Shown piece by piece: positions 3,257 through 28,782 of a stretch of DNA of 47,230 bases. The notes beneath the pieces are model-generated. The model saw only the letters and a program-made list of their open reading frames with translations, was not told the origin of the DNA and searched no databases. The DNA is taken from assembly GCA_027084135.1 (NCBI GenBank), contig JALWLO010000074.1, forward strand, positions 1 through 47,230, written 5' to 3'. The position numbers and the translations under genes are program-made. The first letter of the stretch is position 1. Every line of letters begins with the position of its first letter. The stretch comes from Campylobacterales bacterium (GTDB taxonomy: Bacteria > Campylobacterota > Campylobacteria > Campylobacterales > QNZT01).

Positions 3257-4183
3257 TTAATGTGATTTTGCTACAACTTGAAGTGCCGCTATCGCCCCAT
3301 CACTTGCGGCACAAACCACCTGTTTCGGTGCCTCTATGCGTATATCTCCCGCCGCATATAAGCCCTCGACAGAGGTATTCATCGATAGATCGACTATCAC
3401 CTCTCCCCACTCATTTACCTCGCACAAGAAGCTACCGTCCTCCTGTTTGAGTACTTGATTTTGCACATCCATACCTACAAAGATAAAGACTCCGGGTACC
3501 TCTATGTGCCTCTTGGTACCCTCTTTGGAGATGATATCCACACCGGTAACTCCACTCTCATCACCCAATATCTCATCCACTACGCTATTTAGTACTAACT
3601 CTATTTTGCTATTTGCTTTTACTCTCTCAACCGTATGCGGTGAAGCTCTAAAGCTATCTCTCCTGTGTACCAGATAGACTTTTGAGCAGATATTTGCCAG
3701 ATAGAGAGCCTCCTCCAGTGCGGTATCACCTCCGCCTATCACCACAACTTCTCTATCTTTATAGAAAAATCCGTCGCAAGTAGCGCAGTTGCTTACCCCT
3801 CTTCCATAGTAGGTATCTTCCCCTTTGATACCCGCTCTTTTTGGTTTGCTTCCGGTAGCGACGATCACACTTTTTGCTTCTATTTTGTCGCCGCTCGCTA
3901 AGTGAAGTAAAAAGTGCTCACCCTCTTTGGAAACTCGTTTTACTTCACTCATCTCATGCTTCAAACCAAAACGCATACACTGCTTTGGCCAAGGCTCCAT
4001 CAGTTCCATACCCGTTAAGGGCGCTTCAAAACCGGGATAGTTCTCAATCTCCGAACTTTGTGTGATCTGACCGCCCGGAAGCCCCATCTCATACATCACT
4101 ACATCTTTTAAACCGCCTCTTGTGGCATAAAGCCCTGCTGTGAGTCCTGCCGGTCCTCCGCCGATGATCGCTAAATCAAGCAT
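3257..4183 (-). CDS. trxB: Thioredoxin-disulfide reductase
   Basis: TrxB is the FAD- and NADPH-dependent reductase that regenerates reduced thioredoxin in the cytoplasm. The 308-aa protein has an N-terminal FAD Rossmann motif ([14 protein letters not shown]), the redox-active NCATCDGFF near residue 135, an NADPH-binding [15 protein letters not shown], and a C-terminal YAAGDI motif. All are in the expected order for low-molecular-weight TrxB. It shares the operon with its substrate gene trxA, separated by one small gene for a CXXC-less thioredoxin-like protein. Confidence 0.97.
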
Positions 4184-10374: not shown

Positions 10375-10905
10375 ATGTTTAAAAAATTTATCTTAGTACT
10401 AATGATACTTTCCACTTCACTTTTTGCACAAAACTTAAACTTAGAGCTAAAAAGTACGATAAACAAAAGATACCATCTCCATACCACGGATGAAGGCATC
10501 AAGATCGATGAGTGGAAAAGAGGCGGGATACTGCTTGTTTTTTTCGGTACGCACTGTCCACCCTGCAAAGCTGAGATACCTAAACTCAAAGAGATACAGA
10601 GACATAGAAACGGGCTTTTGGTATTTGCTATACAGGTTGAGCAGGGTGTCAGCGATGAAGAGGTTACAAGATTTGTCAAAATGCACCATATCAACTATCC
10701 GGTCGTAAACTATACTTATGCGATGAGTTTGATACTATTTATGAGGGATAATCTCGACTGGGGTGGGGAGATACCTACGATGTATCTCTTTGCAAAAGAT
10801 GGAAGCTATATCAAAACATATGTCGGCATCACCTCAAAGAGGAGGATACTTGAGGATTTCAAACACTCTAAAAAAGAAGTACTAATATCTATATCTCAAA
10901 TATAG
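10375..10905 (+). CDS. TlpA/ResA-like periplasmic thioredoxin
   Basis: The 176-aa protein has a signal peptide (MFKKFILVLMILSTSLFA). Its thioredoxin domain contains FFGTHCPPCKAEIPKL, giving a CPPC active site, followed by the cis-Pro strand EIPTMYLFAKDG. Exported TlpA-like proteins typically reduce disulfides in apo-cytochromes or act in copper-site assembly. AAAAGGAAAGCA precedes the ATG. The 3' end overlaps the convergent porin gene by 24 bp. Confidence 0.85.
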   Translation: MFKKFILVLMILSTSLFAQNLNLELKSTINKRYHLHTTDEGIKIDEWKRGGILLVFFGTHCPPCKAEIPKLKEIQRHRNGLLVFAIQVEQGVSDEEVTRFVKMHHINYPVVNYTYAMSLILFMRDNLDWGGEIPTMYLFAKDGSYIKTYVGITSKRRILEDFKHSKKEVLISISQI

Positions 10906-12282
10906 CCTAATATCCTGTGCATCTTTGATAGGATCGAGTCCCGCTTTTTGGGCTTGAGTCATACTCATAGGAGTTCCGCTCATACCGAAAAACCCTTGAG
11001 AGCCGGTATAGTCATATGCTATCTTTGTCCACCTCGCTTGAAATGAGAAGGCTTTATTGATCTGCATTGTCCAAAATATCTCATACGCATCACCTCGCGC
11101 GGCAAGTTTAGAGCCTATAAGCGTATCCTCTCCATATGTAAAACTTCTCCAATATTTTGAGCCGTGGTTATACTCCACTCCAACCCTTGCGTCATCCACA
11201 AAGAGGCAGTCCCAATTTGCACCTACATAGTAGGAAGTACCGCTTTTATCACTACCGCTTCCCAGCATCGCTTTGCCGCTATCGGGATGGGTTTTTGAGT
11301 AGGCGATAGAAGCAAAAAGCTTCATGCTATCTAGTGTTGCGTTGATCCCGTTACCGACACTGTCGATCAGCAAAGAGACTCCTGCGCCCTCTATAGAGCC
11401 GAGACTCTTTAGATCCCCGCTATTATCCAGAAATCCCGGTAAATTCCAGCCGCGATAGTAAGTACTCATCACCTCATATTGACCGTCATTGTAGGGCACA
11501 AATATAAAGCCGGCAAGATCGACATCCTTCAGCGCTCCAAACTCTTTGCTATAGTCGGCACCGTCCCTGCTAAATCTCGCTTTCGCGTTGCTCACACCCC
11601 TACCGTAACACGCTTTGATATACATACCGTTGATATCGCTCAATTTTTCAAGATCGAGTTTAAAACTTGCACCGTCAAACTCCATATTGATCGTATGCCC
11701 AAGCGGTGAGTTTGGCTTATCATCATCTCTCATCGATACCAAAAAACCGTTTGTCGAGGGTCGCCGTCCCAGTGAAGCAGTCCAATCTATACCTGTTCCA
11801 AAGAGATCTTTGCCGTAGTAGAGCCAGTACGCTTCTCTGACTCTTAACTCTCCGTCGGTAAGGTTTTCATTGATCACCCAGTCAAACTTGTCATATCCCA
11901 TCGCTCTTTGTGGCATATGGGTAGCCGGACTTAGAGGTGTTGCGCCATAAGCTTTGTAGTATGATAGTTTCGCTCTAAAAATAGTATTGCTCAACGGTCG
12001 ATATGCCAAATCTATCCAAAACCTATTGGATAAAAGGGCGTTGTTTTTATACTTTTTTCCACTTGCACTCTTATACTCTATCCTATCCATAGCTGTTCTA
12101 TGATCCGCACTGAGTTTGAGATTATCTTTCGCATCATGTTTTTTAACTTTTATCAACTCTTTTTTGAGCTTTTTGATCTCTTTCTTGAGCTTTTGAATAT
12201 CTTTATCGCAAATTGTGTCATGAGCTTGTAAGGCACTAGTGCTAAATAGGAGCATCAACGCATATACTAGACTCTTTTTCAT
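10882..12282 (-). CDS. DUF3373 outer-membrane porin-like protein
   Basis: Start chosen at 12282 (MKKSLVYALMLLFSTSALQA), which begins a signal peptide; the tracked start adds 20 residues that include the promoter. The 466-aa product has a Lys-rich coiled coil right after cleavage (KDIQKLKKEIKKLKKELIKV), then a long barrel with repeated aromatic strands, ending in DIRLYLRYRY, a good outer-membrane insertion signal. The pattern of coiled coil plus barrel and NRFWIDLAYRP / LREAYWLYYG-type motifs fits the DUF3373 family found in Campylobacterota. Transported substrate unknown. Confidence 0.8.
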   Translation of the reverse strand: MKKSLVYALMLLFSTSALQAHDTICDKDIQKLKKEIKKLKKELIKVKKHDAKDNLKLSADHRTAMDRIEYKSASGKKYKNNALLSNRFWIDLAYRPLSNTIFRAKLSYYKAYGATPLSPATHMPQRAMGYDKFDWVINENLTDGELRVREAYWLYYGKDLFGTGIDWTASLGRRPSTNGFLVSMRDDDKPNSPLGHTINMEFDGASFKLDLEKLSDINGMYIKACYGRGVSNAKARFSRDGADYSKEFGALKDVDLAGFIFVPYNDGQYEVMSTYYRGWNLPGFLDNSGDLKSLGSIEGAGVSLLIDSVGNGINATLDSMKLFASIAYSKTHPDSGKAMLGSGSDKSGTSYYVGANWDCLFVDDARVGVEYNHGSKYWRSFTYGEDTLIGSKLAARGDAYEIFWTMQINKAFSFQARWTKIAYDYTGSQGFFGMSGTPMSMTQAQKAGLDPIKDAQDIRLYLRYRY

Positions 12283-12315: not shown

Positions 12316-12342
12316 GTAAGGAAAATTTAAAAAGTGAAACAT

Positions 12343-12437
12343 AAAAAAACGGCACTCTATATGAGTGCCGTCTCTCCCCTGATTTGTTACCTTAAAGAAG
12401 GTAACCCCCTATATAGCAGTCATTTATCGATGCTGCA
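12343..12437 (-). ncRNA. Candidate small RNA of about 95 nt with intrinsic terminator
   Basis: On the minus strand an extended -10 (TGGTATAAT at 12443-12448) predicts a start near 12437. The transcript would contain a perfect 8-bp hairpin GTTACCTT/AAGGTAAC (12386-12405, loop AAAG in + orientation) and GGGG-rich single strands. It ends in a perfect 9-bp stem ACGGCACTC/GAGTGCCGT followed by seven Ts (12343-12371). No ORF fits. tpx upstream has its own terminator (12550-12580) and the DUF3373 gene downstream has its own promoter, so this is a free-standing unit. The promoter carries the same palindrome as tpx, suggesting co-regulation. Confidence 0.65.
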
Positions 12438-12442
12438 AAAGA

Positions 12443-12473
12443 ATTATACCAAAATAAGATAAATTTAGTCTTA
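12443..12473 (-). promoter_or_regulatory. Small RNA promoter with Fur/PerR-like box
   Basis: Extended -10 TGGTATAAT at 12443-12448. Upstream of it is TAAGATAAA-T-TTAGTCTTA (12455-12473, + orientation), a 9-1-9 inverted repeat with two mismatches. The distance from box to -10 equals that at tpx exactly. Confidence 0.55.
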
Positions 12474-12549
12474 ATTAAAGTTAGTAAAAGATAATTTTTG
12501 TTATATATTATAGGTTTTATATAATGCGATGTAGATTTTATGGGTTATA

Positions 12550-12580
12550 AAAAGAAAAAGCCCCATATTTGGGACTTTTA
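12550..12580 (-). terminator. Terminator of tpx
   Basis: Minus strand AAAAGTCCC-AAATAT-GGGGCTTTTT followed by CTTTTT. A 9-bp stem with one G-U pair and a T-rich tail, 20 nt after the tpx stop codon. Confidence 0.75.
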
Positions 12581-12600: not shown

Positions 12601-13125
12601 CTAAGCGTTAGCTGCCTCTTTAGCTGCGTTGATAGCCTCTTCATAATCAGGCTCTTGAGTAATCTCAGGAACAACTTGTTTATAAGTTACTTTTCCATCT
12701 TTTCCGATGACAAAGATCACTCTTGCAAGAACTCCTGCAAGTGGTCCGTCTGCTAAAAGAACACCGTATGCATTACCAAAATCTTTATTTCTAAAGTCGC
12801 TACATACTTTGATATTATCTACTCCTGCGGCTCCACACCATCTAGCAGCAGCAAACGGTAGATCCATAGATACAGTCACTACTTCAACACCATCAAGTTT
12901 AGTCGCCTCTTCATTAAATCTTCTAGTCTCAGCATCACACACACCTGTATCCAGTGACGGAACCGCTACAACAAGTTGAACTTTCCCTTCTCCACCGATC
13001 TTCTCATCTTGAAGCATCGGGTTACAGTTTACGACTGTTACCTCCGGAGCTTTATCTCCTACATTTACCTCATTTCCTGCTAAGTTGCATACCGTGTCGT
13101 TTTTAAATGTAACTGTTGTTGCCAT
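12601..13125 (-). CDS. tpx: Thiol peroxidase (atypical 2-Cys peroxiredoxin)
   Basis: Tpx reduces hydrogen and lipid peroxides using thioredoxin. The 174-aa protein contains the peroxidatic site PSLDTGVCDAETRRFNEEA (Cys63) and the resolving Cys97 in FAAARWCGAAG, matching the Cys61/Cys95 pair of E. coli Tpx with a small offset. C-terminal GKVTYKQVVPEITQEPDYE is family-typical. An extra Cys34 is present. It is divergent from a DUF4149 gene, sharing a palindromic operator, and its electron donor trxA/trxB is at 3-5 kb. Confidence 0.96.
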   Translation of the reverse strand: MATTVTFKNDTVCNLAGNEVNVGDKAPEVTVVNCNPMLQDEKIGGEGKVQLVVAVPSLDTGVCDAETRRFNEEATKLDGVEVVTVSMDLPFAAARWCGAAGVDNIKVCSDFRNKDFGNAYGVLLADGPLAGVLARVIFVIGKDGKVTYKQVVPEITQEPDYEEAINAAKEAANA

Positions 13126-13254: not shown

Positions 13255-13737
13255 ATGGAGCTAAATATACCAAAATATATAAGTATCATTTATATACTGA
13301 TACTCTCTATCACACTAGGAGCATCACTCTATGCAGGAGCTGTCGTTGCACCGACTATCTTTCATAGTGAGACATTTTTAGGTGGAGAAATCCTCAGTCA
13401 CTACCAAGAGGGTTTACTGATGACCCAAAACTTTATCAAGTTATCTTATCTTGTGGATCTTACGGTTTTGGCTGTCATTTTTTACGAAGGGTATCGGTTT
13501 AAAAGTTTTGAGAGAGATAGTATCGCGCTTTTGAGTGCGGTTCTTGTAGTACTAAGCGGTCTTCTCTTTGCGCACTACTATATACCGTGGATCTTGGAGA
13601 TGCAGACAAAAGGTGCTGAGGCAACTCAAAGTAAAATATTTGAAAATGCACATTTTGCCAGCGAACTCGACTTTAAACTCTTTAGCATAGCACTCTTAGT
13701 ACTTATCGTAAGAAACCTCTATCGATATCCAAGATAG
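13255..13737 (+). CDS. DUF4149 integral membrane protein
   Basis: The 160-aa protein has four hydrophobic segments (about 9-30, 62-80, 90-109 and 140-155) and the family-like motif SLYAGAVVAPTIFHSE near the N-terminus, where a small-residue helix leads to 'P-x-x-F'. DUF4149 proteins are uncharacterised inner-membrane proteins. TAAAGGACGAAT provides the ribosome site. It shares a divergent control region with tpx, so a link to peroxide or metal stress is possible, but this is inference. Confidence 0.75.
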   Translation: MELNIPKYISIIYILILSITLGASLYAGAVVAPTIFHSETFLGGEILSHYQEGLLMTQNFIKLSYLVDLTVLAVIFYEGYRFKSFERDSIALLSAVLVVLSGLLFAHYYIPWILEMQTKGAEATQSKIFENAHFASELDFKLFSIALLVLIVRNLYRYPR

Positions 13738-15404: not shown

Positions 15405-16391
15405 TTACTCACTTTTTGGTTTTGCGATGAGTTCGCAGTGGGTAGTAAATCTGCCTCTTTTATAGGCTTCCACACCGTATCTACCGATCATCACGGCATT
15501 ATCTGAGCAATATTTTAGCTCAGCTAAGTGAAGATTGGTGCTATATTTGTCAGTGAGCGTTTTGATCTTCTCTCGTAGATACAGATTTGCGCTTGCACCC
15601 CCAACGATAGCAAAATCCCTTATCTCTCTCTCTTTGAAGACTCTTCTTAATTTATGCAACAGATGCTCCACCGCAACTCTCTGAAAAGATGCGGCGATAT
15701 CGGCTCTATCTTGATCACTTATCTTCTCTCCAAGCTCTGCTATAGCTAGTCGAACCTGATTTTTCAGACCGGAGTATGAGAAGGCTAACTTCGGTGAATT
15801 TTGAAGCGGCACGGTAAAGTCAAACCTCTTCTCATCCCCCTCTCTTGCCAACTCCTCTATGATAGGACCGCCGGGATATCCAAGTCCCAGCATCTTCGCC
15901 ACTTTATCGAAACTCTCACCGAAACTATCATCCATACTCTTTGCTATCACCCTAAAGTCGTCAAACCCTTTGGCATCTATCACCTCCGTATGTCCACCGG
16001 AGACCAAAAGTACCGTCATGGGAAAAACCTCCTCCCTCTCTATAAAGAGAGAGTAGATATGCCCATAGAGGTGATTGACCGATATGAGTGGAAGTTTTAG
16101 AGAGATGGAGAGAGCCTTTGCCATCATCACCCCCTCCAAAAGTGTAACAGATAGCCCAGGGTGAGTCGTCACGGCGATTGCCTTTAAGTGGGGGAAAAAC
16201 TCCTTAGTACTAGAGAGGATATCGGGCAGTGCTTTGGCATGAAGCCTTGCCGCAAGCTCCGGTACTACGCCGCCATACTTGGAGTGTTCCAACTCTTGGG
16301 AGATCTTTTTGTGAAAAAGCACATCTTTGGTATCTATCTTCGTTATCGCAATGGAGCTATCGTCACAACTGCTCTCTATGCTTAGTATCAT
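15405..16391 (-). CDS. tsaD: tRNA N6-adenosine threonylcarbamoyltransferase
   Basis: TsaD transfers threonylcarbamoyl to A37 of ANN-decoding tRNAs. The 328-aa protein starts [13 protein letters not shown] and has the metal-ligand motif NHLYGHIYS (two His four apart), the ASKHA motif [11 protein letters not shown], and [16 protein letters not shown]. The ~330-aa length matches bacterial TsaD. It lies 9 nt after the DUF4105 gene and probably shares its transcript. Confidence 0.96.
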
Positions 16392-28757: not shown

Positions 28758-28782
28758 AAATAAGATAAAATTTATCTTATTT
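28758..28782. promoter_or_regulatory. Perfect 25-bp Fur/PerR-like palindrome
   Basis: AAATAAGATAAA, a central A, then its exact reverse complement. The core AGATAAA-n-TTTATCT is the one found at the tpx/DUF4149 promoters. A minus-strand -10-like TACTAT lies at 28748-28753, between the box and the Cys-rich gene. The plus-strand VWA gene starts 83 bp away and has no clear -10 at the matching distance. Confidence 0.65.

Follow-up and report, generated by a model that had tools for sequence, protein, structure and literature searches.

We consider it likely that a small RNA gene located between tpx and a porin gene in a Campylobacterales genome, here called G-RNA, specifies a stress-induced, trans-acting antagonist (sponge-type) of a second small RNA, C-RNA. 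Both genes, their conservation and their co-varying complementarity could be read from the sequences of the source genome and its relatives. The window, i.e. the whole stretch of DNA that was analysed (47,230 nt), contains the following features.

10882-12281, minus strand: DUF3373 porin gene, downstream neighbour of G-RNA (PF11853, E 9e-111)
12343-12436, minus strand: small RNA G-RNA, about 94 nt, found again in 11 other genomes of the source family
12343-12371, minus strand: intrinsic terminator, ACGGCACTC-ATATA-GAGTGCCGT plus six further Ts
12375-12380, minus strand: pairing block 2, conserved, AGGGGA
12386-12405, minus strand: hairpin 2, 8 bp, GTTACCTT/AAGGTAAC, between both pairing blocks
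12406-12419, minus strand: pairing block 1, conserved, CTGCTATATAGGGG
12416-12436, minus strand: hairpin 1 (5', imperfect), present in relatives with a different sequence
12443-12448, minus strand: -10 element TATAAT, kept in homologues
12453-12475, minus strand: palindromic regulator box, ATTAAGACTAAATTTATCTTATT, with a score of 29.0 under a weight matrix (PWM) built from 12 sRNA boxes
12556-12579, minus strand: terminator-like site of tpx
12601-13125, minus strand: tpx (thiol peroxidase), upstream neighbour of G-RNA
13255-13737, plus strand: DUF4149 gene, divergent, a conserved flank of the sRNA locus in the family
15405-16391: tsaD

A self-contained small-RNA unit with a promoter, a transcript of about 94 nt, hairpins and an intrinsic terminator had been proposed here in a first-pass annotation, and the sequence comparison confirmed it as a self-contained and conserved small-RNA gene. 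From 5' to 3' the predicted RNA consists of hairpin 1, UAUAUAGGGGG, the 8-bp hairpin, AAAUCAGGGG, the terminator hairpin and a T-run that extends to 12343; both linkers contain GGGG. The extended -10 (TGGTATAAT, 12451-12443 on the minus strand, with the TGG extension at 12451-12449) and the perfect 8-bp hairpin (12405-12386) were found as annotated, and transcription would start about 7 nt 3' of the -10. The annotated hairpin inventory was right for hairpin 2 and the terminator and omitted hairpin 1 (12436-12416), which makes a third and is imperfect. The terminator, described as a 9-bp stem with seven Ts, is indeed present and has six further Ts, or seven if the stem is counted as 8 bp. It was overlooked by a simple terminator scan, probably because the scan extends the stem into the T-run.

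Many promoter-like matches occur in AT-rich intergenic DNA, and hairpins and a promoter-like sequence could in principle have come together here by chance, without any function. Such a coincidence is scarcely credible in view of the fold (MFE -36.5 versus -18.0 for shuffled sequences, z -6.5, with 0 of 200 shuffles as good), of the six matches to the box in the window (at most three mismatches, the palindrome being scored on both strands) against 0.04 expected, and of the conservation and covariation across genomes. With Rfam 15 tRNAs alone passed the threshold over the window, and the G-RNA homologues and C-RNA loci were without any match above threshold. An assignment of G-RNA to DUF3800-I (RF02969) was rejected, as the match reached 29.8 bits against a threshold of 44.2 and covered only a generic hairpin plus terminator; its other weak Rfam matches, also below the cut-off, concern generic hairpins.

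Upstream, tpx is closed by its own terminator, in line with the annotation (terminator-like site at 12579-12556). The promoter annotated for the porin gene did not hold up, since the sequence TTCACT-17-TATAAT (12338-12310) is no better than matches in shuffled sequence. The porin start at 12281 (signal peptide MKKSLVYALMLLFSTSALQA) is favoured over an upstream ATG at 12342. G-RNA and the porin gene share a strand, with about 60 nt between the 3' end of the RNA and the porin start codon. Although this position would suit a leader or attenuator acting in cis on the porin gene, we hold that reading to be highly improbable: among the homologues both the downstream gene and its distance vary, and the pairing blocks and the terminator are kept regardless. 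The downstream gene is often a porin gene, is moaC in G002 and differs again in G006, G012 and G016; genes for a lipoprotein and a SoxC-like enzyme are also found in this position. The porin neighbour, which had been taken as a hint to function, is thus not constant and, in our preferred reading, incidental. All 12 stand-alone G-RNAs adjoin tsaD/DUF4149 and/or tpx, and in three of the genomes (G005, G011 and G014) no match to tpx was found, yet G-RNA is kept at the same place.

A DNA similarity search of 59 genomes (the source genome and 58 relatives) by itself recovered chiefly the promoter box. The relatives share an order of elements, consisting of the box, the -10, a differing 5' hairpin, CTGCTATATA, AGGGGA and the terminator hairpin, and 12 genomes of the family carry the stand-alone gene (G000, G002, G004, G005, G006, G011, G012, G014, G016, G018, G019 and G021). 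Fixed in these homologues are CUGCUAUAUA and AGGGGA, whereas the stems drift with compensatory changes; an alignment of 10 of the 12 gave TACTGCTATATA and AGGGG as the conserved blocks. Conservation of both hairpins had been put forward as a check. It was borne out for the terminator hairpin, where eight of the ten stem pairs changed on both sides among relatives, and not for the 8-bp hairpin, which is found only in the source genus (G000 and G002). C-RNA was found and G-RNA was not in G003, G008, G009, G010, G013, G015 and G017, some of which are incomplete genomes, and the matches to a relaxed pattern for these absent G-RNAs were all chance sites, already known G-RNAs or antisense of C-RNA.

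The GGGG-rich single strands, to which a function had been ascribed, gained a putative one in the comparison: blocks 1 and 2 are both complementary to the 5' end of C-RNA. Reverse-strand matches of the G-RNA core pattern lie mostly 3' of promoter-like sequence upstream of rpmE (L31). C-RNA, a predicted RNA of about 50 nt, is absent from Rfam and consists of UUCCCCUCCCC(C)UAUAUGGCAG and a hairpin; variants read TTCCCCTCCCC(C)TATATGGCAG, TATATAGCAG or TATGTAGCAG, followed by the hairpin. The copy of the source genome lies on contig C47 at about 4110-4160 (loci L099/L155), and nearly every genome of the source family with an intact contig has C-RNA upstream of rpmE. Its hairpin covaries: 98.3% of the cells are paired, both sides have changed in 17 cells, and no shuffle scored as high. 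When 84,980 species were scanned, with one genome apiece, C-RNA was essentially found in MAGs of the Campylobacterota, where it is strongly conserved, next to a handful of isolated, chance-like matches in unrelated phyla. Several copies of the C-RNA sequence or its complement occur in some MAG records.

In almost every genome C-RNA directly precedes rpmE-rsmI, and this position raises the main rival to the antagonist model, namely that G-RNA acts on the leader of the rpmE mRNA and alters the synthesis of L31 and RsmI under stress. In seven other families (f3, f4, f9, f11, f18, f20 and f22) C-RNA starts the rpmE leader and is contiguous with it, without a T-run, and rpmE could therefore be the real target. 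In most of the source family, however, the hairpin of C-RNA ends in a T-run and a further promoter-like site for rpmE lies downstream, so that C-RNA looks like an RNA of its own of about 50 nt. Moreover, in G002 C-RNA lies 34 kb from rpmE, beside rsmE, with the duplex retained. We therefore regard rpmE as an unlikely target and favour C-RNA itself as the partner of G-RNA.

The pairing of the two RNAs is specific and evolutionarily kept, as expected of a sponge pair (22 pairs, with covariation). The patterns used to search for cognate pairs admitted T as well as C where the sequence varies, and in the 22 genomes with both RNAs 9 to 12 of the 12 positions of C-RNA CTATRTRGCAGN pair with G-RNA NCTGCTAYATAG. 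At the variable R/Y position A:U occurs in 15 genomes, G:C in 5, G:U in 2 and A:C in none. The outermost pair has changed from C-G to U-A in G007, and in G002 CU has become UC opposite GG with both pairs retained. Over the 12-bp intermolecular helix 92.9% of the cells are paired and four pairs changed on both sides. The intermolecular covariation score was reached by 1 of 500 shuffles, and four of the five measures by at most 14 of 500; kinship can inflate such a count, for which reason more weight goes to the independent lineages f4, f18 and G007. The second block, AGGGGA, additionally pairs with UCCCCU where G-RNA stands alone. For the source genome the gain on cofolding was 23.3 kcal/mol, compared to 4.6 and 5.5 for the homodimers. 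In the predicted complex the two G-rich linkers pair along CUCCCCUCCCCUAUAUG, and hairpin 2 is looped out with all hairpins intact, which would explain how a genus-specific hairpin can sit between two fixed blocks. In three Hydrogenimonas-type genomes the duplex energy beats that of shuffles only weakly to moderately (z -1.4 to -4.8).

The first-pass annotation had suggested a role like that of RyhB or OxyS. In a rival reading of this kind the GGGG linkers would act on several mRNAs and the match to C-RNA would be secondary, or C-RNA would restrain G-RNA. The stress-type box and the accessible G-rich linkers would fit such a classical regulator, and sequence alone does not tell which member of a sponge pair controls the other. 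Nevertheless, the conserved 12+6 nt fit one specific partner and co-vary with it, and in the tpx 3'UTR forms described below almost the entire conserved core is antisense to C-RNA. With the conserved element matching C-RNA and no mRNA pattern enriched, we did not retain the suggestion, which seems distinctly improbable. A search for mRNA targets of C-RNA showed no enrichment over the control, either of AGGGGAG near ATG or of near-complements as 15-mers. The ribosome-binding site of groEL (ATATAGAGGAGGAGA, locus L348) agrees with the C-RNA complement in 13 of 15 positions and is a lead only.

Five lineages (f4, f9, f18, f22, and G007 of the source family) carry the G-RNA core in the 3'UTR of tpx. 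It follows the tpx stop codon, or overlaps it in G007 and G047, and is itself followed by a terminator-like hairpin. The cores read CTGCTATATAAGGGGA (G007, L024), CTGCTACATTAGGGGA (G043), CTGCTACATTCGGGGGA (G024, G130) and CTGCTACATAGGGGGAGGGG (G093, JALWIX). A perfect antisense of 20 nt to C-RNA is present in the tpx 3'UTR of JAMOUF, JALWIX and G093, and one with a single G-U in a Nitratiruptor MAG. The Nitratiruptor MAG S143_81 also carries the element; MAG bins may be mixed, and statements on single genomes call for care. The occurrence in other families ties the G-RNA core to tpx and not to the porin. The G-RNA of the window is not itself a 3'UTR-derived sRNA, having its own promoter behind the tpx terminator; it is the relatives (f4, f9, f18, f22 and G007) that hold the 3'UTR position.

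The ancestral pair was probably formed by the tpx 3'UTR and the rpmE 5' leader. The present arrangements suggest that in the source family the C side first acquired a terminator and later became independent of rpmE, and that the G side gained the tpx-type promoter box and became free-standing, the order of events being derived from presence and position and not from a tree. A broader reading, which we offer tentatively and would not yet prefer, is that the tpx 3'UTR pairs with the first 20 or so nucleotides of the rpmE mRNA across many families of the Campylobacterota, as an old link from stress to the ribosome, and that in one family both UTRs became co-evolving stand-alone sRNA genes.

The box had been annotated as Fur/PerR-like and as lying at the same distance from the -10 at G-RNA and at tpx. 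The distance to TATAAT is indeed identical for both (boxes at 12475-12453 and 13213-13191), whereas the assignment to Fur/PerR is put in doubt by the occurrence of the box at Fe-S genes. With gene names read from translations and without a family search, the box is found upstream of sufB, superoxide reductase, thiC (with trx) and tpx in G002, of nifS in G024, of a 2Fe-2S ferredoxin gene in G000 and of sufE or nifS in other relatives. Two Fur-type proteins, Fur itself and a PerR-like one, are encoded in each tested genome together with a single Rrf2 protein, and the Rrf2 proteins contain a Cys-rich segment (ECS...CSSGKGDFC in G000 and G002). In the genomes tested the fur and perR loci are without the box. 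The sole box-like site at a regulator gene lies upstream of rrf2 in G002 and is weak (PWM 8.1, five mismatches), scoring below the boxes of the target genes; in G000 the same region lies beyond the contig end. Because of the boxes at sufB, nifS, thiC, superoxide reductase and ferredoxin, an IscR-like Rrf2 regulator is at least as likely to bind the box as Fur/PerR. From the general behaviour of IscR/Rrf2 regulators an Fe-S-sensing Rrf2 protein is presumably somewhat likelier than PerR. The literature on PerR of C. jejuni that was searched yielded no PerR motif for comparison with the box. Control by either Rrf2 or PerR would make G-RNA stress-inducible.

The box also marks a candidate Fe-S/oxidative regulon (loci L276, L268, L271, L273 and L284; ferredoxin, sufB, superoxide reductase, nifS and thiC), possibly run by the Rrf2 protein encoded beside flhA. 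Within the window a near-perfect copy (28759-28781) lies between two genes, one for a small Cys/Gly-rich protein (ending in CCGGGHCS), the other for a large protein that resembles lipoproteins.

For the expression and induction of G-RNA, the direction of control, the fate of C-RNA and the genes regulated we infer the following. A stress-responsive repressor, probably a single Fe-S-sensing Rrf2/IscR-like protein and possibly PerR, would control tpx and G-RNA via near-identical boxes. Stress would lift the repression, and G-RNA would be made together with tpx. Its exposed linkers, UAUAUAGGGG and AGGGGA, would then pair with the unstructured 5' end of C-RNA (AGCUCCCCUCCCCUAUAUGGCAG-hairpin), which would withdraw C-RNA from its targets or mark it for decay. 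By analogy with the known C/U-rich RNAs CJnc190 (PMC8687705) and RepG (cited there), C-RNA is predicted to repress mRNAs with G-rich ribosome-binding sites, which G-RNA would relieve.

Antagonist pairs of small RNAs are already known, also in C. jejuni (PMC8687705, PMC10470494), a species that lacks both Hfq and ProQ (PMC10470494). CJnc190/CJnc180 combines a C/U-rich sRNA with a perfectly complementary RNA antagonist (PMC8687705), in the same phylum as G-RNA/C-RNA. There, however, the antagonist is encoded on the opposite strand of the same locus, whereas the loci of G-RNA and C-RNA are unlinked, with the antagonist linked to tpx and to a box of the stress type. CjNC140 and CjNC110 are trans-encoded, bind via CU-rich and GA-rich elements and are linked to peroxide resistance and iron, and CjNC140 lies upstream of the porin gene porA (PMC10470494). 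In that pair the CU-rich partner is on the porin side, whereas here it is the G-rich one; the pairs lie at other loci, and their likeness is one of description and does not include a sequence relation. RepG of Helicobacter pylori is a C/U-rich sRNA that reads a G-rich sequence (described in PMC8687705); it uses a C/U-rich loop where C-RNA uses an unstructured 5' end, and no antagonist gene of the G-RNA kind is described for it in that paper. Small RNAs derived from mRNA 3' ends, and sponges, have been reviewed (PMC9438474), and the tpx 3'UTR cores of the five lineages resemble the former, whereas in the source family the element is an independent gene with a tpx-type box. RyhB and OxyS share with G-RNA the putative control by stress; G-RNA differs in having no Rfam match and in a conserved element that points to an RNA partner instead of the mRNAs of iron proteins.

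To our knowledge few deeply conserved sRNA pairs are known in the Campylobacterota. The literature searched on this phylum describes neither an rpmE-linked sRNA or tpx sponge nor the G-RNA/C-RNA pair. Here covariation makes it possible to trace an sRNA and its proposed antagonist through at least five families, and there are intermediates in which each partner still resides within an mRNA UTR. The birth of small RNAs from UTRs thereby becomes directly testable, as does the recruitment of an anti-sRNA to an oxidative or Fe-S regulon. A widespread, as yet undescribed C/U-rich RNA of about 50 nt is predicted upstream of rpmE.

Finally, the rpmE leaders of the source family (e.g. L099) contain a second conserved hairpin (of the type CTTGTTAT..ATGCAAG) just before the start codon and behind its own promoter-like site, possibly a site of L31 autoregulation. 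Upstream of rpmE in family f6 (L105, L120) a different, well conserved structured leader is found, CAGCGACCCCTG..GGAAGGGTAT..ATACCGGAATGGGTTGGTTGCCCATC.
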